Virus record (IMG/VR): IMGVR_UViG_3300036795_000171
Span: 1 to 39,707 of that record
Length of the DNA: 39,707 nucleotides
Reading direction: 5' to 3' (one strand)
Source: a virus
Part shown: positions 8,839 through 39,707 of the stretch, one piece after another
How positions within the stretch are numbered: position 1 is the stretch's first letter
How the letters are laid out: each line of letters begins with the position of its first letter
Position numbers and translations under genes: made by a program
The notes under the pieces: generated by a model
The model's input: the letters and a program-made list of their open reading frames with translations, nothing else
Told to the model about the DNA's origin: nothing
Database searches by the model: none

Positions 8839-8886
8839 CAGACCTGCACCGGGCATTGGGGGCGGGCGCAGGGCAGCGGGAAAACG

Positions 8887-9129
8887 TTATCGGCGGATGC
8901 GCTGCAGCCAGCCGGAGTGCGTGCCGCGATCCGGGCGGCGAGTGAGAAATTGCATCGCGTTCCGGCTTTTGGCCGCGGCGATCTGCTCCGCCGCCTCCTC
9001 CTCGGAAACCTCGATATTGTTATGCCTGAGCAGGGCGGCGACGGCTTCCGCCGGCGGCGTATCAAGCTCGGCGAATAGCTCCCAGATGCGCCCAAGCTGC
9101 ACATCGGAAGGTTTGACGGGATCGCTCAT
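8887..9129 (-). CDS. Hypothetical helical protein
   Basis: 80 residues from the ATG at 9129, which overlaps the upstream stop as TGATG. It is acidic and helical in the middle (AELDTPPAEAVAALLRHNNI, SEEEAAEQIAAAK) and basic at the end (RRPDRGTHSGWLQRIRR). It is the second gene of the late operon. I do not recognise it; position before terS is where regulators and small accessory genes occur. Confidence 0.55.
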   Translation of the reverse strand: MSDPVKPSDVQLGRIWELFAELDTPPAEAVAALLRHNNIEVSEEEAAEQIAAAKSRNAMQFLTRRPDRGTHSGWLQRIRR

Positions 9130-10963: not shown

Positions 10964-11053
10964 TACTATTTTGACGTTAAATTAAAATATTTTCAACTTT
11001 TTTTCGGGATTGGGCTTTTGGGTTGGTGTCGAAAAGGCGCATTATCACTACCA

Positions 11054-11083
11054 TTGACACCCGGCCAAATTATACAGTATCAT
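11054..11083 (+). promoter_or_regulatory. Promoter for the tyrosine recombinase
   Basis: TTGACA (11054-11059) and TATCAT (11078-11083) are separated by 18 bases. Initiation near 11090 would exclude the TTG at 11023 and fits starts at 11107 or 11134. Its -35 context (ATTGACACCCGGC) resembles that of the Cro-like gene promoter (ATTGACACCAGGC). Confidence 0.65.
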
Positions 11084-11106
11084 CGATAGCAGAGGCGCTA
11101 ATTTTG

Positions 11107-12114
11107 ATGAGATCGGAAGCGCCGGAAGCCATTATGACTGACCTGATAAAATCAGGGGCAAGCCCCCTGATAACATTGCCTGCCTCGCCCGGATCCCTGG
11201 CGCCGGGCCTGAACATCGCTGCGCTCCTGCTCCAGGACCAGCGCGTCGATACGACACGCCGCGCCTACAAGGCCGCGCTGAAGCATTTTTTCGAGGCGGA
11301 GTATGGCGCGCCTCCCGACGCCGCCCTGGTCCGCGCCTTCCTCGCCCAGTCCGCGCCGCAGCTCGCCCTGCAGCTCGCGACCTACCGCAACAGCCTGCGC
11401 GCCGATGGTCGATCGCCAGCGACGATCAACCTGCGCCTCGCGGCCATTCGCTCACTGCTGACGCTCGGGCACCGGCTCGGGTACTGCGCGGTTAACGGCC
11501 AGAAGCTCATCGACAGCGAAAAACAGGAGCGGTACCGCGACACGCGCGGGACCGACCTCGCGAACCTGCGCCGGCTGATCGCCCTGCCGGACCGCTCCAC
11601 GCTGCGCGGAAAGCGAGACTTGGCGCTGCTGCGGCTGCTCTGCGAAAATGCACTCCGCAGGGAGGAGACCTGCGCGCTCGACGTCTGCGATTTCGAGGGC
11701 AGCGAGCGCAGAATCGCAATCCTCGGTAAAGGCAAAACGCAGAAATCGTTTGTCACAATCCGGGCTGCCACCGTGGACGCGATCCGCGACTACCTCCTCA
11801 TGGCAGGGCATACCGCCGGACCGCTTTTTTTGACCTGCGACCGCCGGCCGCATCTGGCCGGCGCGCGGCTGCGGGCGGGGGGACTCTACGCGATCGTCGC
11901 GGCCTATGGCAAGCAGGTCGACCTCACACTCGCACCGCACAAGCTGCGCCACAGCGCAATCACCGCCGCCCTGGACGCCACCGGGGGCGACATCCGCCGC
12001 GTCCAAAAACTAAGCCGGCACGCGGACATCCGGACTCTGTCGATCTATGACGACAATCGCAGCGACCAGCAGGGGGAGATCACAGCGATCCTGGGCGACC
12101 TGCTCGATGGGTGA
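11107..12114 (+). CDS. Tyrosine recombinase (phage integrase or resolvase)
   Basis: 335 residues from the ATG at 11107 (ATG at 11134 is an alternative). The N-terminal SAM-like core-binding domain covers about residues 30-130. The catalytic domain has the family residues: Arg in CENALRREE (near 11654), Lys in the LGKGKTQK beta-hairpin, HKLRHS (His and Arg at 11938-11949), LSRHADIRT (His near 12018) and the nucleophile Tyr in SIYDD (12046-12048). The C-terminal arrangement is XerC/D-like. The stop is directly followed by the stop of the opposing gene (no spacer). No attP-like core was found beside it, so integrase and multimer resolvase are both possible. Confidence 0.92.
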   Translation: MRSEAPEAIMTDLIKSGASPLITLPASPGSLAPGLNIAALLLQDQRVDTTRRAYKAALKHFFEAEYGAPPDAALVRAFLAQSAPQLALQLATYRNSLRADGRSPATINLRLAAIRSLLTLGHRLGYCAVNGQKLIDSEKQERYRDTRGTDLANLRRLIALPDRSTLRGKRDLALLRLLCENALRREETCALDVCDFEGSERRIAILGKGKTQKSFVTIRAATVDAIRDYLLMAGHTAGPLFLTCDRRPHLAGARLRAGGLYAIVAAYGKQVDLTLAPHKLRHSAITAALDATGGDIRRVQKLSRHADIRTLSIYDDNRSDQQGEITAILGDLLDG

Positions 12115-12726: not shown

Positions 12727-13114
12727 CTTCCCCGCCCTCCAGCACGGAAAAGTAGAGCGTCAGCGCGTCGTGGATCACGTCCTGTTTGAGCCTCCCGGTC
12801 TGCCGGCAATGCGCCTCGACCTGGGCGTCTAGGTCCGGGCGCATCTTGAGCGTGACGGTTTTGTAGACCGGCTTCTCGGGCAGCCCGCGCGCCGCCTGGC
12901 GGATCGCATGGATGACCGACTTCGCAGCCGGTGGGTCAGAAGGTTGGTCGGTCGGTAAGCTGACCGACAAGCTGGTCAGTCGGTCAGTCAGTTTGTCAGA
13001 TTCCTGACCGGTCATATTATCAGTCATATTATCAGTCATATGACTAGCTGACTGACTTTCCCGCGCGGCCATCTTTTGCAGGTTGACGCGCTGCAGGTCC
13101 TGGATCGTACTCAT
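12719..13114 (-). CDS. Ribbon-helix-helix protein of the ATPase operon
   Basis: 131 residues from the ATG at 13114, chosen for GGAGG upstream and ATGA overlap with the ATPase stop. Residues 1-75 are low-complexity with MTDNMTDNMTG repeats encoded by the GTCA-rich DNA described below. The C-terminus (YKTVTLKMRPDLDAQVEAHC, LKQDVIHDALTLYFSVLE) is a ribbon-helix-helix: one strand then two helices. RHH proteins paired with an ATPase are typical of plasmid partition adaptors, though transcriptional autoregulation would also fit. The 12-bp and 5-bp repeats inside the gene could be its own binding sites. Confidence 0.6.
   Translation of the reverse strand: MSTIQDLQRVNLQKMAARESQSASHMTDNMTDNMTGQESDKLTDRLTSLSVSLPTDQPSDPPAAKSVIHAIRQAARGLPEKPVYKTVTLKMRPDLDAQVEAHCRQTGRLKQDVIHDALTLYFSVLEGGEDE
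12913..13056. repeat. GTCA/TGAC repeat cluster inside the RHH gene
   Basis: The tetramer GTCA or its complement TGAC occurs 14 times in 144 bases, where about one would be expected by chance. It includes a 12-bp tandem GTCATATTATCA (13011-13022 and 13023-13034), the palindrome GTCATATGAC (13035-13044) and an inverted CTGACC/GGTCAG (12960-12979). It looks like a binding array such as a centromere or iteron cluster. Confidence 0.6.
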
Positions 13115-13956
13115 TTCTGGGCGCCCTCCGCCTTCACCGGCCACTTCTTGGCTGCCACCATCTCGGAGTAGGTCGCCGCCACGACGGCCGGGGAAATCAC
13201 CGTCTCGGCGCGCACGTAGGCGTTGACGAGTGACGCATCGCAGAGGACGCAGACGTCGCGCGGTACTCCCCTGGTGATATTGTAGATGTCGATCAGCGAG
13301 CGCGCCTCGAACAGCGCGTCCGCGCCGGCGCCCCCGGCGGTCCGGATCCGGTGCTCGATCATGCCCTTCATATCCTCAAAGGCGAGCGGATCCAGGTTGC
13401 TGACGACCGCGATCCGGCTGCGGAAGGCGTCCTTGCGCGAGAGCTTGTTGGGGAAATTGTCCTGCGCGAGCAGTACGATCGTAATCAGCTTATCCTCAGC
13501 GGTCTGGAAATTGGAGAGGGCGGCCAGCACGTCGATATTGTCGGGGTGGATCGTCTGCGCTTCGTCGATCAGCAGGACGGGATGGCGGCCGGCCGCATAC
13601 TCCTCCAGCAAAAACCGCTCGATGATCTTTTGGTTATCCGCGGCGATCCGGACCGGCACCAGGCCGTAAGCCTCGGAGACCAGGCGCAGGAACTGGCCGG
13701 GGCTGCGGACCGCCGCGCTCGGCAGGAAGGCGACCGTTTTGCCGTCGTCTGCCGCCCATGTCCGCTGGAGCTGGTGCGCGATCGTGGTCTTACCGCTGCC
13801 GACCGGCCCCATCAAGAGCGCGAGGCCCCGCTTCTGATCGGCGGCATAGCGCATCTTGGCGACGGCGATCTGGTGCTCGGCGCTCGGGTAGGCGAACCGG
13901 GGAGAGGGCTGCGTGCCGAAGGGCATCTCCCGCAGGCCGAAAAATGCTTCGTAGAT
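13111..13956 (-). CDS. ExeA/GspA-type AAA+ ATPase, apparent AUC start
   Basis: 281 residues if read from an AUC codon at 13956; the first ATG is 10 codons later at 13926. Walker A GPVGSGKT, Walker B VLLIDEAQ, and a C-terminal HRIRTAGG segment mark the ExeA/GspA family, which is related to transposition and loader ATPases. Family members begin MYxxFFGLxExPF...PxPRF; here the codons from the AUC read IYEAFFGLREMPFGTQPSPRF, and AAGGAG lies seven bases upstream of the AUC, so the AUC fills the place of the normal Met. Upstream frame has no ATG, GTG or TTG before a stop. The role is likely helicase loading or partition with the RHH and O-like proteins. Confidence 0.8.
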   Translation of the reverse strand: MYEAFFGLREMPFGTQPSPRFAYPSAEHQIAVAKMRYAADQKRGLALLMGPVGSGKTTIAHQLQRTWAADDGKTVAFLPSAAVRSPGQFLRLVSEAYGLVPVRIAADNQKIIERFLLEEYAAGRHPVLLIDEAQTIHPDNIDVLAALSNFQTAEDKLITIVLLAQDNFPNKLSRKDAFRSRIAVVSNLDPLAFEDMKGMIEHRIRTAGGAGADALFEARSLIDIYNITRGVPRDVCVLCDASLVNAYVRAETVISPAVVAATYSEMVAAKKWPVKAEGAQK

Positions 13957-15078: not shown

Positions 15079-15510
15079 TTATGCCGCCTGTCTGCGCTTC
15101 TTTTTAGCCGCGTAACCTTCGATCATTACTTCTACACACCCGTGGAGTTCAGTGAGATCATCACCAGTAAAGTCTTGCTCATCTAGGCCAACTTCCCGAA
15201 TAAGGGAATGGATTGGCCGAAATTTGGGATATTGGTACTCTTCTGCGGGAACAAGCACGAAACCTTCAGGGGGATAAAACCCATGTGCGAACATTTCTTG
15301 ATCACTGACGTTTAGCTCCTTCGCCAACAACCTAAGATTGCTTTCCCCGACTCGTGGCGGCGCGTTGCTTGCCGGTTGGTCATCACCCTCAATAAAGCCT
15401 ATATAGGCGCGCGTCATGCCTGTTCTGCGCGCGAGTTCAGATTTAGAAATACCTAACTTCTCGCGCAACTCTGTGATATAAGCGCCGAACGTCTGGTTTT
15501 CTGTCTGCAT
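15079..15510 (-). CDS. XRE-family repressor (CI-like)
   Basis: 143 residues. An N-terminal helix-turn-helix (FGAYITELREKLGISKSELA, RRTGMTRAYIGFIEG) is followed by an acidic C-terminal region (REVGLDEQDFTGDDLTELHG) with no LexA/CI autocleavage signature that I can see. It is divergently arranged with the Cro-like gene, the classical switch layout, and is on the same strand as the secreted moron. ATG at 15510 is preferred over 15528 because the earlier one lies almost on the transcript start. It likely binds the TTGTATATT operators. Confidence 0.8.
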   Translation of the reverse strand: MQTENQTFGAYITELREKLGISKSELARRTGMTRAYIGFIEGDDQPASNAPPRVGESNLRLLAKELNVSDQEMFAHGFYPPEGFVLVPAEEYQYPKFRPIHSLIREVGLDEQDFTGDDLTELHGCVEVMIEGYAAKKKRRQAA

Positions 15511-15545
15511 CCTTACACCTGCTCGCATCCTGAATGTATAGTCAT

Positions 15546-18206: not shown

Positions 18207-18229
18207 CGCCCTCTCAAATTGAGAGGGCG
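18207..18229 (+). promoter_or_regulatory. Intergenic hairpin 1
   Basis: A perfect 9-bp stem (CGCCCTCTC with GAGAGGGCG, 5-nt AAATT loop) follows the 17945-18181 gene. No U-run. A second hairpin starts 18 bases further on. The 18182-18289 gap holds no other feature seen. Confidence 0.5.
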
Positions 18230-18274: not shown

Positions 18275-18289
18275 AGAATGGAAGCCCTA

Positions 18290-18610
18290 ATGCCCAGAAC
18301 GCCCAATCCTGATGCGGATTATACCCCAATCGATCACAGTATCGACGGCCTTCGGTTCGCGATGGCGAAATTTATCGAAATTGAAATCGCATGGATGCAG
18401 GTCGAGCACGCGCGCCATGCACTCGACCTGGGACTCCAGGTCAACGACACCGAGCAGGTCATCAACAGGCTCACGCTCAACTACCAGCAGGCCGCTCGCC
18501 GACACCGCGAAATCCGTACGCTCCTCACGGATGCCCCCCCCCACTTAGCAAGCCCGTCCCAGCATTTCTCTCAGGGCATACCAATGACTGAGAGGAGATT
18601 GTCACAGTGA
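18290..18610 (+). CDS. Hypothetical helical protein upstream of the initiator
   Basis: 106 residues from the ATG at 18290 (GGAAG five bases upstream; an ATG at 18278 is the alternative). Helical (FAMAKFIEIEIAWMQVEHAR, LNYQQAARRHREIRTLL). Its stop overlaps the GTG of the initiator. Unrecognised; close coupling to the initiator suggests a replication-related role. Confidence 0.55.
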   Translation: MPRTPNPDADYTPIDHSIDGLRFAMAKFIEIEIAWMQVEHARHALDLGLQVNDTEQVINRLTLNYQQAARRHREIRTLLTDAPPHLASPSQHFSQGIPMTERRLSQ

Positions 18611-19758
18611 GCCTTTGCCTGCCGTCCTCCTTTGCCCACGACATGCGCCTCATGCGCATGCTGAGCGCGCATGAATTCCGTCATCTCCTGCAGGTGTTCG
18701 ACTTCGCCCTGAATTCGTGCCAATCATACACCATCCCTGCGCGGCGGCGCGAGGAGCTGCGCTATACGCTTGGCATCAACCAGGCCAAATTCGAAAAGCG
18801 CCTTGAAAAATGGAGCAGCCCCGAGATCGACCTGATCGAGATCGACGAAGACGGCGCGCTCTACCTGACCTATCTCGCAGATCAGTCGCAGGGGCAGAGC
18901 GCAGGCGGCGACGCGCCCAGCAGCGGCAACGGCCTTACCCCGCGCCTCCAGGAAGGCCGCCGCTACAGCAACAGCCCCGAGGCCGAGCGCCAACGGGCCG
19001 CGTATCGTCGCAAAAACGGCAACGGTTACGGCAGCGGCGCGGCGCCGGACGAGCCGCCGAATTCGGCCGCCAATGGCGACTCGGGCATGACGCCGATGCG
19101 TGAGGCTTTCGAGAAAAACCTCACGCAAAACCTCACGCCTAGTGAGAGTAAACCTCACGCTTCTGCGTTAGGTTTTGATGAAAATCAACGTGAGGTTTTC
19201 CGCGTACGCGTAAGAGACGTTATCGTCTCAGAAAAAGAAGATCACAAAGTGATCTCTGATTCCGGAGACGTTATCGATATCGATAACGTTGAGGCGGCCA
19301 CAAAAACCTCACGCAAAACCTCACGCCTGGAATCGCCGCCGCTGCCGGTCCCTGCCTCGCCGGGGCTGGCCGCCGAGGTCGATCGGGTCATCCGTAATCA
19401 GGCGGTTTCCGCCGTCCTGCGAGACACCGGGGACAGCCCGAAAAACCGGGGCCTCTGGGTCCACCTCTACACCGCCTGTGACGCCTGCGGCCTCATCGAG
19501 GAGATCTGGCGCGGCTCCGTCCTTGACCTGGCCGAGCGCCTGAAAGATACCTCCGACCCGGTCCGCAATCGTGCCGCCTGGCTGCAGGACCGGATGCGCC
19601 GGAAGTTCGAGGAGCAGGACGTTTTCCTGCCGACCCAAGCCGAGATCGCCGCGGCGATGCAGCGCGGGGAGGGTCCGGAGTGGGTCCGCTCCGTCATCGC
19701 TGAAAGCATGTCCGAGGCCGAGCGAAACCTCGCCGGTCCCACAGAGGAGAATCCCTGA
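18607..19758 (+). CDS. Replication initiator with internal origin (O-like)
   Basis: 383 residues, GTG start (GGAG in GAGAGGAGATTG upstream). Residues 1-95 resemble a winged-helix domain (LSAHEFRHLLQVFDFALNSC, ARRREELRYTLGINQAKFE). Residues 95-170 are low-complexity (S, G, P, A, N). Residues 164-240 are encoded by iterons and palindromes. Residues 250-383 form a conserved-looking helical domain (GLAAEVDRVIRNQAVSAVL, LDLAERLKDTSDPVRNRAAW). This DNA-binding domain / iteron-encoded linker / partner-binding domain plan is that of lambda O. The protein is not recognised by name; initiator is inferred from this plan and position. The stop overlaps the ParB-like start. Confidence 0.65.
   Translation: MSLCLPSSFAHDMRLMRMLSAHEFRHLLQVFDFALNSCQSYTIPARRREELRYTLGINQAKFEKRLEKWSSPEIDLIEIDEDGALYLTYLADQSQGQSAGGDAPSSGNGLTPRLQEGRRYSNSPEAERQRAAYRRKNGNGYGSGAAPDEPPNSAANGDSGMTPMREAFEKNLTQNLTPSESKPHASALGFDENQREVFRVRVRDVIVSEKEDHKVISDSGDVIDIDNVEAATKTSRKTSRLESPPLPVPASPGLAAEVDRVIRNQAVSAVLRDTGDSPKNRGLWVHLYTACDACGLIEEIWRGSVLDLAERLKDTSDPVRNRAAWLQDRMRRKFEEQDVFLPTQAEIAAAMQRGEGPEWVRSVIAESMSEAERNLAGPTEENP
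19098..19326 (+). other. Candidate replication origin: 8 iterons around a palindromic core
   Basis: The 12-mer AAAACCTCACGC, with at most one mismatch, occurs at 19115, 19127, 19149, 19303 and 19315 on the plus strand and inverted at 19098, 19165 and 19188. Between the two groups are GAGACG-N4-CGTCTC (19214-19229), GATCAC-N3-GTGATC (19240-19254) and a perfect 22-bp palindrome (19268-19289, core ATCGATATCGAT). All lie inside the initiator gene. Confidence 0.75.
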
Positions 19759-21560
19759 TGCCCAAAACCATTTCCCCGCCCGCAGCGGATCATGCCGCGC
19801 GGCATAACGGCGCCGGCCATATCTCCAATATTGACGGAAAAACAACCCCCGAGATCGACGGAGAAACAACCGTCCTCGGTATTTCTCTTACCGTCCTCGA
19901 ACTTCCGATCGCGGACATCCGGCCCAGCCCCCTGAACCCGCGCAAGACGTTCAATGCCGACTACCTCGCCGAGCTCGCGGAGAGCATCCGGCAGCACGGA
20001 GTGATGCAGCCCATCGAAGTCCGGCCAATGGGAGCATACTTCTCGATCGTTATGGGTGAGTGCCGGTGGCGGGCCGCGCATCTCGCGGGACGGACGACGA
20101 TCCCCTCCCTCGTGCGGGTCATGGACGACCGGGAGCACCGGGAGCGCGCCATCGTCGAAAATATCCAGCGACGCCAGCTTGACCCCATCGAGGAGGCAAT
20201 AGGGTATCGCGATCTCTCGCAAATGGGCTACACCCATGCGCAGATCGCCGCGAAAGTGGGGCGCGGCCAGCCGGCGATCACCAAGGCGATCTCGCTGCTC
20301 GACCTGCCCGCGAATTCTCAGGCGAAAATCTCCACGGGTGAACTCTCTGTCTCGCAGGCGCTCGTCATCAAGCGCTACGCCGCATCGCCGGCGGTCGCCG
20401 ACGCGATCTCTGACGTCGTCGCGCGGGACAAGATCAGCTCGCACACGCTGGAGAAGGGCGTCCCTCACGAAGTCACGGACGTGCTTAAAAAAGACAAACT
20501 GGCGCGTGAAGTCGGGTATGAAACACTTTTCGACTGGAGAACGATCTGCGAGCAGTGCCCCTTCCAGGCGTTCATCAAAGATAACTATAGCCGGGGTTAC
20601 TGCCTCCGTCCCGAACATTACAACGAACTTCAGCGCGCCGCTAAAGCCCAGAAGACTGAGGCGGACAGGGTGCGCGCCGACAGCGACAAAGCGGCAGGCA
20701 TCACGGCCAATCTCAGGAGCCTCAAATATGACAGCTTTGTGCACATCCCCGATGCCGCCCCTGGCGGCTGCTCGGAGGCGTGCGAGTGCAGGCAGGTCGT
20801 CAAGGGCTACCAGGGTGAGCCGGTCGCCATCTGCAACGATCCTAAGCGTTACCAATCACTCAAAAAAGCAGACAAGGAACGCCGCAGCGCGCTGCTGGCC
20901 GCGAGGTCGGAGGGGCTGCTGCAAAAGGCGATCTCTTCGATGGACGCCGCCGGCGCGGATTGGGAGGCCCCTGCGCTGGAGCGCTCCATTTGGCTGTTCG
21001 GAGTAAATGCCTTTCGTTCTTTGGAATTTGAGATCTGTCAGGAGGCGGCAGCGCGGCGCGGTATCACGCTGACCGAGCGATGGTCACAATACTGCGAGAT
21101 GCCCTCGGCAGCGCGCGCCCAGTTCGGTCCTCTCAGCCCCTTAGATTTTCTCTACCTGCTCGCGGAGGCACGGCTGAGGCAGGACATCAAACGCGCCGTC
21201 GAGAGCGCGCAGGAAGACCAACTCGCGCGACTCGAATGGTTCGCGTCGGCAGAGGAGGTGCAGGCCGAAGATGTCTCCTCTGCACCGGTGCGCTGCGCGA
21301 AATGCAAAACAGCGCCGCCAGCGAGGCCACTCGTGGGCCGCGCTCTGTGGGATTATCTCACCTGCGGGATCCATGTCAGCCAGTTCGGCGAGCTTGTGAC
21401 ACCTCGGGGCGCTTATTACTGCAGCGACTGCGGCCCCGGCGTGGCCTATTGCCGGGAATGCGGCTGCACGGACGAAGCCGGCTGCGAGGGAGGCTGCACA
21501 TGGGTCGAATACGACCTCTGCAGCGCCTGCGCGGCCCCGCAGGAGGCACCGGCGGCATGA
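19758..21560 (+). CDS. ParB-like protein with cysteine-rich C-terminus
   Basis: 600 residues, about twice the usual ParB length. The N-terminus is a ParB/Spo0J nuclease-CTPase domain: LPIADIRPSPLNPRKTF, motif GECRWRAAHLAGR (100-112, normally GERRxRA) and ENIQRRQLDPIEEA (134-147). A helix-turn-helix follows (YTHAQIAAKVGRGQPAITKA). The middle carries Cys pairs (about residues 265-280 and 330-350). The C-terminus has CAKCKTAP and a CRECGCTDEAGCEGGC cluster, several zinc sites. It lacks a ParA neighbour. Likely origin or DNA binding in replication, or a host-takeover role; phage ParB-like proteins of this kind are not all partition proteins. Confidence 0.75.
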   Translation: MPKTISPPAADHAARHNGAGHISNIDGKTTPEIDGETTVLGISLTVLELPIADIRPSPLNPRKTFNADYLAELAESIRQHGVMQPIEVRPMGAYFSIVMGECRWRAAHLAGRTTIPSLVRVMDDREHRERAIVENIQRRQLDPIEEAIGYRDLSQMGYTHAQIAAKVGRGQPAITKAISLLDLPANSQAKISTGELSVSQALVIKRYAASPAVADAISDVVARDKISSHTLEKGVPHEVTDVLKKDKLAREVGYETLFDWRTICEQCPFQAFIKDNYSRGYCLRPEHYNELQRAAKAQKTEADRVRADSDKAAGITANLRSLKYDSFVHIPDAAPGGCSEACECRQVVKGYQGEPVAICNDPKRYQSLKKADKERRSALLAARSEGLLQKAISSMDAAGADWEAPALERSIWLFGVNAFRSLEFEICQEAAARRGITLTERWSQYCEMPSAARAQFGPLSPLDFLYLLAEARLRQDIKRAVESAQEDQLARLEWFASAEEVQAEDVSSAPVRCAKCKTAPPARPLVGRALWDYLTCGIHVSQFGELVTPRGAYYCSDCGPGVAYCRECGCTDEAGCEGGCTWVEYDLCSACAAPQEAPAA

Positions 21561-21697
21561 CCGCGATCACCGTCACTACCGAGCAGGTCGACATCGACCA
21601 GGGGGATCGATCCAACTTCGGGACGCATCCGCTCCTGGTGGCCCTCTGTCGCGCCTTCGGCGTCAGCGTGAGAGCGCTGACGGAGGACGAGGAATGA
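21557..21697 (+). CDS. Small hypothetical protein
   Basis: 46 residues beginning MTAITVTTEQVDIDQGDRSN, ATG overlapping the ParB-like stop (ATGA) with GGAGG ten bases upstream, and its stop overlapping the next start. The stretch HPLLVALCRAFGVSVRALTE is helical. Real by its coupling; unrecognised. Confidence 0.5.
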   Translation: MTAITVTTEQVDIDQGDRSNFGTHPLLVALCRAFGVSVRALTEDEE

Positions 21698-22368
21698 GCA
21701 CATCATGGGCAACCCTCAAAGACGCCCTCGGCCTGACCCTGCGCCCCGTCGATCTCTGGCCGGGCAAGCTCCGGGCTTCCTATGATCGCGAAGCGTCGCC
21801 CTACACCGCGCCCCTGAAAGACACACTGCGCGTCCTCAAATACGAACTGCAGGAGCTTGGCGCGACAAGCATCGTCCTGCAGATCGCCATCCGGGAGCGC
21901 GACATTCGACTCGACGGACTGCCGCGTGCCGATGCCCGCGCCGAGCATCCCGGCGTCATCCTTTCGTTCGAGACAAAGGCCGGCCCGCGCCGGCGCGCCT
22001 TTGATCGATTTATGAAGTGGGAACATAACCTGCGCGCGCTCGCCAGTAACCTGCAGCATCTGAGGCACGCCAACTTGTACGGGGTCGAGGAGGATGCCGT
22101 CCAGTATGCAGGCTGGAAAGCGCTGCCCGCTCCGCAGACGCTGCCCGCCGAGATCGGTGCCGCCCGCGATCTGCTCGACCTGGCCGGGGAATACGGTCCG
22201 TCCTCGCAACTCTATCAAGGATTGATCGACGACCCGGAGGCGCGCCGCGATGCCTGGAAACGCGCCGTGAAGCGTCATCATCCCGACGCGGGCGGCGATC
22301 CTGAAAAATTCCACCGTGCGCAGGCGGCTTATGACCTGCTGGAGAAAAGCGCACTGAAAGGGACTTAA
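21694..22368 (+). CDS. J-domain (DnaJ-like) protein
   Basis: 224 residues. The C-terminal 50 residues are a J-domain end: AWKRAVKRHHPDAGGDPEKF then HRAQAAYDLLEKS, with the HPD motif (196-198) that stimulates Hsp70 ATPase. N-terminal 170 residues have no recognised fold but begin with a helical region and contain VILSFETKAGPRRRAFDRFM. It may recruit host DnaK to remodel the replisome or virion assembly intermediates, as in lambda replication where DnaJ/DnaK dissociate the O-P-helicase complex. It is in the same operon as the O-like initiator. Confidence 0.8.
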   Translation: MSTSWATLKDALGLTLRPVDLWPGKLRASYDREASPYTAPLKDTLRVLKYELQELGATSIVLQIAIRERDIRLDGLPRADARAEHPGVILSFETKAGPRRRAFDRFMKWEHNLRALASNLQHLRHANLYGVEEDAVQYAGWKALPAPQTLPAEIGAARDLLDLAGEYGPSSQLYQGLIDDPEARRDAWKRAVKRHHPDAGGDPEKFHRAQAAYDLLEKSALKGT

Positions 22369-39342: not shown

Positions 39343-39698
39343 ACAATTCCCTGCTCGACGCCTGTCTCCAGGTCGCATTGCACGCGGTCGCTATATCTTC
39401 GCAGGCGGATGATCTTCGCCCGCTCCATCGCCCCCGGCGCGCTGTCCGAGGGGATGTAGGCGATGTCATTCACCTGCACCGCCGCGCTCGGGTTCAAGAT
39501 GCTGAGGCGCCGCATTACGTCGAGCGTCGCCGTTGCCGGCTGCGCTTCGTCCCTACTGATGGTCGTCTGCGAGACGCGGAAGACGCGCGCCGGGAAGGGC
39601 GAGCCGGGAATCGGCGCTTCCACCTGCGTATAGCCGCCCGTGGCCGTCCGCGTCCGCACGGAACGCACGATCTTGATCTTGAGGATACGGTTCGACAT
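39339..39698 (-). CDS. Head-tail joining (head closure) protein
   Basis: 119 residues, MSNRILKIKIVRSVRTRTAT then VEAPIPGSPFPARVFRVSQT and a beta-rich end. Small beta-barrel closure proteins follow connectors in this position. The gene crosses the contig junction: its 5' end is repeated at 1-118 and its ATG overlaps the connector stop by TGATG in the circle. Fold inferred from position and size. Confidence 0.65.
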   Translation of the reverse strand: MSNRILKIKIVRSVRTRTATGGYTQVEAPIPGSPFPARVFRVSQTTISRDEAQPATATLDVMRRLSILNPSAAVQVNDIAYIPSDSAPGAMERAKIIRLRRYSDRVQCDLETGVEQGIV

Positions 39699-39707
39699 CA
39701 GGTGATG
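39581..39707. repeat. Terminal redundancy of the contig, copy 2
   Basis: Identical to bases 1-127. It holds the 5' part of the head-tail joining gene and its junction with the connector gene. Confidence 0.9.

Follow-up and report, generated by a model that had tools for sequence, protein, structure and literature searches.

The replication origins of lambdoid phages are the closest described counterparts of the locus reported here. They have a nested layout, comprising four to six iterons and an AT-rich tract (PMC7466680), and in known origins of this kind, such as that of lambda, the gene in which the iterons lie encodes the protein that binds them (PMC7466680). A second group of described systems is that of phage partition: parS sites made of direct repeats are known beside repA, and in the RepA/parABS mycobacteriophages, such as Miko and Rachaly, a replication gene lies near parB with direct repeats adjoining. 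These phages possess ParA and form extrachromosomal prophages (PMC7157519).

We analysed IMG/VR record IMGVR_UViG_3300036795_000171, whose whole length of 39,707 bp is referred to below as the window. Positions 1-127 of the record are repeated at positions 39581-39707. This 127-bp terminal direct repeat indicates that the record is probably complete and circularly assembled, at ~39.6 kb, and the gene content is that of a temperate siphophage. A rightward early operon, which includes a 383-codon gene and parB, spans ~15.9 to 22.4 kb. The main features are as follows.

Left part of the record, strand -: terminase, portal and capsid genes
Right part of the record, strand -: tape measure and tail genes
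11023-12111: tyrosine integrase
15079-15528: HTH repressor
18278-18610, strand +: 110-aa gene, function not assigned, directly upstream of the 383-codon gene
18607-19758, strand +: proposed replication initiator gene, 383 codons, GTG start, encoding an orphan protein
19098-19326, no strand: proposed origin, a palindromic core flanked by eight 12-bp iterons
19758-21560, strand +: ParB-like protein (ParB_N, HTH_ParB), the next operon gene after the 383-codon gene
21694-22368, strand +: phrog_9210 protein with a J-domain-like C-terminal end (HPD motif), after parB

The segment 19098-19326 is probably the replication origin of the phage, and the gene whose linker contains it most likely codes for the initiator. 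As in lambda O/ori-lambda and the lambdoid phages P27 and 933W, several short iterons and a candidate strand-opening region are found midway through an early gene of a temperate phage, within the coding sequence of the presumed initiator. The surroundings differ from those of lambda. The gene directly downstream encodes ParB, not a helicase or helicase loader; no recognised P- or DnaC-type loader gene was found beside the 383-codon gene, and the J-domain gene follows. A loader of an unfamiliar family may be encoded elsewhere. Across the record, there were zero matches to DnaB_C, D5_N, rve or the ParA-type ATPase (PF13614). As other replication proteins are unrecognised in the record, initiation must come from some gene.

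Two further genes of the record warrant description. An AAA ATPase encoded at 13111-13926 (strand -), between the integrase and the repressor, is of the XrtA/PEP-CTERM-associated type and also resembles MuB-like transposition proteins. It is nearer to the former (TIGR03015, 3e-46, yet below the cut-off) than to MuB (phrog_296, 1.4e-14). This resemblance, together with a portal close to those of transposable phages, raised the idea of Mu-like transposition in place of an origin, which we rejected because the record has no match to an rve transposase and carries an integrase. The phrog_9210 protein has relatives annotated as DnaJ-like chaperonins in phages of Gordonia, Microbacterium and Mycobacterium. 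Its relatives are found mainly in actinobacterial phages, with a few in Caulobacter, Erythrobacter and cyanobacterial phages, and its gene was the sole blastn match of the early region to phages.

The iteron array and its palindromic core

Scanning of the 39,707 bp for the 12-bp iteron AAAACCTCACGC at no more than one mismatch identified eight copies, all at 19098-19326, and no further site outside that segment. An earlier, sequence-only reading of this DNA had described eight iterons, five direct and three inverted, in the linker of the gene at 18607-19758. The scan of the whole window confirmed the count, and all eight copies fall within the 383-codon frame.

Iteron 1, 19098-19109, strand -: AAAGCCTCACGC
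Iteron 2, 19115-19126, strand +: AAAACCTCACGC
Iteron 3, 19127-19138, strand +: AAAACCTCACGC
Iteron 4, 19149-19160, strand +: TAAACCTCACGC
Iteron 5, 19165-19176, strand -: AAAACCTAACGC
Iteron 6, 19188-19199, strand -: AAAACCTCACGT
Iteron 7, 19303-19314, strand +: AAAACCTCACGC
Iteron 8, 19315-19326, strand +: AAAACCTCACGC

At up to two mismatches, the window contained 11 AAAACCTCACGC sites versus 2.6 expected, a number reached in none of 100 shuffles. Exact 11-mers occurring at least three times within 800 bp were, over the whole window, the array's own only.

Between the outer iterons lie five consecutive palindromes, counted as non-overlapping with arms of at least 5 bp; their arms measure 5, 5, 6, 7 and 11 bp. 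The sequence-only reading had listed three inverted repeats, including a perfect 22-bp palindrome at 19268-19289. The repeats and the perfect palindrome are present, but the palindromes number five.

19175-19188, no strand: palindrome TTGATgaaaATCAA, between iterons 5 and 6
19201-19210, no strand: palindrome CGCGTACGCG
19214-19229, no strand: palindrome GAGACGttatCGTCTC
19239-19255, no strand: palindrome AGATCACaaaGTGATCT, inside the low-GC segment 19220-19259; candidate unwinding element
19268-19289, no strand: perfect 22-bp palindrome ACGTTATCGATATCGATAACGT, single occurrence

Neither the number of palindromes nor their summed arms were equalled in any of 2000 dinucleotide shuffles. The core is the densest 160-bp stretch of palindromes in the window, with no rival except windows that overlap it, and its single-strand DNA fold has a z-score of -4.65 versus shuffles. 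GC content is 45% over the 160-bp core versus 62% genome-wide. It falls to ~33% at 19220-19259, although windows of lower GC occur elsewhere in the genome. In lambda, the AT-rich tract adjoins the iterons. By contrast, the array described here has six iterons to the left and two to the right of a palindromic core of moderately low GC, in which there is no strongly A+T-rich tract comparable to lambda's.

Apart from the palindrome at 19268-19289, a single inverted repeat in the window combines arms of 11 with a loop no longer than 4. This repeat, CGCCCTCTCAAATTGAGAGGGCG at 18207-18229, has a loop of 1 and lies ahead of the 110-aa gene, near the GC-skew maximum; it may be an operator or have another role. 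A skew peak near 19200 had been named as something to look for; the cumulative curve has a maximum, not a minimum, at ~18.2 kb (18165), which was not significant (0.106 of block shuffles).

We evaluated whether repeats in the protein could be the source of those in the DNA. This possibility was rejected, as iterons are found in each of the three reading frames of the 383-codon gene and on either strand, and 2000 synonymous-codon shuffles of the gene yielded a mean of 1.25 sites and a maximum of 6, versus the 8 observed. Third-position GC is 0.45 in the array-bearing codons of the linker versus 0.79-0.85 in the remainder of the gene. The distribution over frames and strands and the drop in third-position GC indicate that the constraint acts on the DNA rather than on the protein. 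Codon choice thus yields to the repeats and palindromes, as expected of a nested origin or another DNA site. Overall, the nested origin is well supported by the anatomy of the locus: the iterons, the palindromic and relatively A+T-rich core, the placement of the array within the linker of a gene from the early operon, and the constraint at the level of the DNA, which overrides codon bias. Points against it are the orphan state of the encoded protein, the lack of a strongly A+T-rich tract, the skew result and the existence of arrays of the 12-mer outside origins.

The 383-aa protein and a proposed mechanism of initiation

A GAGGAG-like site precedes the GTG start of the 383-codon gene. This start overlaps the upstream stop codon, and at the other end of the gene the stop codon overlaps the parB ATG. 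Pfam, PHROGs and NCBIfam contained no match to the protein, including among the O-like and replication initiation families, and searches of phages, plasmids, IMG/VR and genome contigs revealed no relatives. The statement of the sequence-only reading that it resembles no nameable protein stands. Credible relatives were likewise absent from ~1,090 genomes sampled from the order and phylum to which Pigmentiphaga humi belongs and from the phylum of a Pirellulaceae genome; two weak genome matches fall mostly in the low-complexity linker. The N-terminal part had no match among PDB sequences. In pairwise comparisons with the initiator-like proteins of Pam1 and of contigs L018, L032 and L002, scores of the 383-aa protein were not above those of shuffles.

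Single-sequence AlphaFold models were of low confidence, with a mean pLDDT of 57 for the N-terminal part (residues 1-103) and 49 for the C-terminal part. At that confidence, residues 1-103 were modelled as helix-helix-long helix-two strands, an order compatible with a winged helix, and the C-terminal part as all-helical. Searches with the N-terminal model using Foldseek and VIA-align returned scattered weak matches, none of them meaningful.

We infer the initiator role of the protein from the array and the position of the gene, not from the protein itself. The sequence-only reading had called it an O-like initiator in a lambda-type origin. The nested arrangement is supported, but the O-like identity is not, as the protein has no sequence similarity to O-like PHROGs; 'O-like' would accordingly be a description of the arrangement. 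The same reading had raised a new initiator-origin family. The protein is indeed an orphan and possibly represents a new initiator family, but a single sequence is insufficient to establish one.

In the mechanism that we propose, induction would lead to transcription of the rightward early operon, and the 383-aa protein would bind the 12-bp iterons that flank the core on both sides. The resulting nucleoprotein complex may stress the palindromic, lower-GC core (GC low at 19220-19259), leading to strand opening or hairpin extrusion. The C-terminal part of the protein would then recruit the host helicase, a step proposed since the phage has no recognised helicase. Lambda replication uses host DnaJ and DnaK, and the HPD motif is typical of J-domains. 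By analogy with host DnaJ in lambda, the J-domain protein encoded two genes downstream may aid host DnaK in remodelling the complex. If confirmed, this would be an initiator invisible to sequence searches and found via its origin rather than its protein, acting on a core in which palindromes of differing sequence follow one another between flanking iterons. A search for in-frame iteron arrays where codon bias drops locally could then reveal initiators in further phages that lack recognised replication genes.

Alternative functions of the array

The main rival to the nested origin is a ParB-related site. According to this explanation, the array is a parS-like partition or ParB-loading site for the neighbouring ParB, and the surrounding gene does not encode an initiator. 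The start of parB overlaps the end of the 383-codon gene, the mycobacteriophage parS consists of five direct repeats just downstream of repA (PMC7157519), and ParB might recognise the 22-bp palindrome as a site of its type, although this palindrome is present only once. In contrast to Miko and Rachaly, the genome had no match to a ParA-type ATPase (PF13614) and encodes a tyrosine integrase; plasmid-style partition is therefore not expected. Moreover, no comparable array was found near parB in six phage contigs encoding a related ParB or in two named phages, and in L002, which encodes one such relative, a recognised initiator gene lies a few genes upstream. We consider a parS-like function unlikely.

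It is also conceivable that the array is an origin whose iterons are bound by the 110-aa upstream product, by ParB or by a host factor, the surrounding gene again not encoding an initiator. The 383-aa orphan has no demonstrable DNA-binding fold, which leaves room for another binding protein, and the neighbouring genes are uncharacterised too. In the known nested origins cited above, however, it is the product of the surrounding gene that binds the iterons (PMC7466680). Such a division of roles appears rather improbable, slightly more so than a partition site.

A transcriptional control region, with the iterons and palindromes serving as operators or attenuator hairpins for parB and the downstream genes, would be consistent with the tandem hairpins, which fold well as single strands. 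However, no promoter was called on the + strand of 19098-19758 in a search that covered the sigma-70-like type, and the five palindromes all differ in sequence and hence do not serve a single repressor as binding sites; we judge this explanation very unlikely.

Occurrence of the iteron in other phages and in bacteria

When IMG/VR was scanned for full iterons in closely spaced pairs, one other contig was identified, L018 (IMGVR_UViG_3300012090_000012). The linker of an initiator gene in L018 contains two copies of the 11-mer of the array, AAACCTCACGC, with 11-bp spacing, which counts in favour of the nested origin. The product of that gene matches DnaD-like helicase loaders (1.6e-8) and O-like initiators in PHROGs, and a DnaB helicase gene is directly downstream. 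L018 thus differs from the phage studied here in having two iterons only and in being followed by a phage DnaB gene, and the two proteins have no detectable similarity. No iteron array was present in Pam1_56, which is related to the L018 initiator.

A looser scan of IMG/VR found L032, in which iterons follow the gene of a 207-aa basic protein and extend into DNA rich in TATATA. They comprise four direct GTGAAACCTCACGCCCACA repeats and one inverted copy, located beside this small gene and the A+T-rich stretch. The array occupies the end of the gene and the DNA beyond it rather than its interior, and our reading of L032 is tentative because the 207-aa protein has no family match. Pairs of AACCTCACGC in IMG/VR were set aside, as most of the 25 matches were pentapeptide-repeat genes encoding ANLTRANL.

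In this phage, L018 and L032, the 11-mer occurs in or beside a recognised or suspected initiator gene, and the proteins have no detectable similarity to one another. One interpretation is that AAACCTCACGC is a recurring iteron of initiators in three unrelated phages and that the 383-aa protein is the first member of a new family of initiators, whose origin core is a cluster of hairpins. We regard this combined proposal as unlikely. The recurrence of the iteron is a lead rather than proof of a shared recognition element, since the 11-mer is also found in repeats that are not origins. A literature search for the 11-mer returned nothing on replication.

Pairs of the 11-mer were present in 53 genome stretches, most of them from freshwater Bacteroidetes and above all from Chitinophagaceae. 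The Bacteroidetes pairs that we inspected closely were intergenic; others were in planctomycete and verrucomicrobial repeats. In addition, two phage contigs, L029 and L031, carry tandem arrays by tail and terminase genes, outside origins. These occurrences could suggest that the array is the chance capture of a dispersed bacterial repeat unrelated to replication, but the copies described here do not run head-to-tail: they are in both orientations, are spread across 230 bp and lie on either side of a palindromic core, and the gene stays open through them, so there is only a slim chance that this explanation is correct.

In L029, ten head-to-tail copies of GAAACCTCACGC (12 bp) at 8845-8962 lie beside tail-region genes. 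Among the Bacteroidetes, short tandem AAAACCTCACGC arrays with a period of 11-12 bp occur several per genome at L043, L080, L087 and other loci. We interpret the arrays of these loci as a dispersed repeat family of freshwater Bacteroidetes. The Bacteroidetes arrays are followed by a conserved stretch and, in L043 and L080, by an apparent tRNA 3' end.
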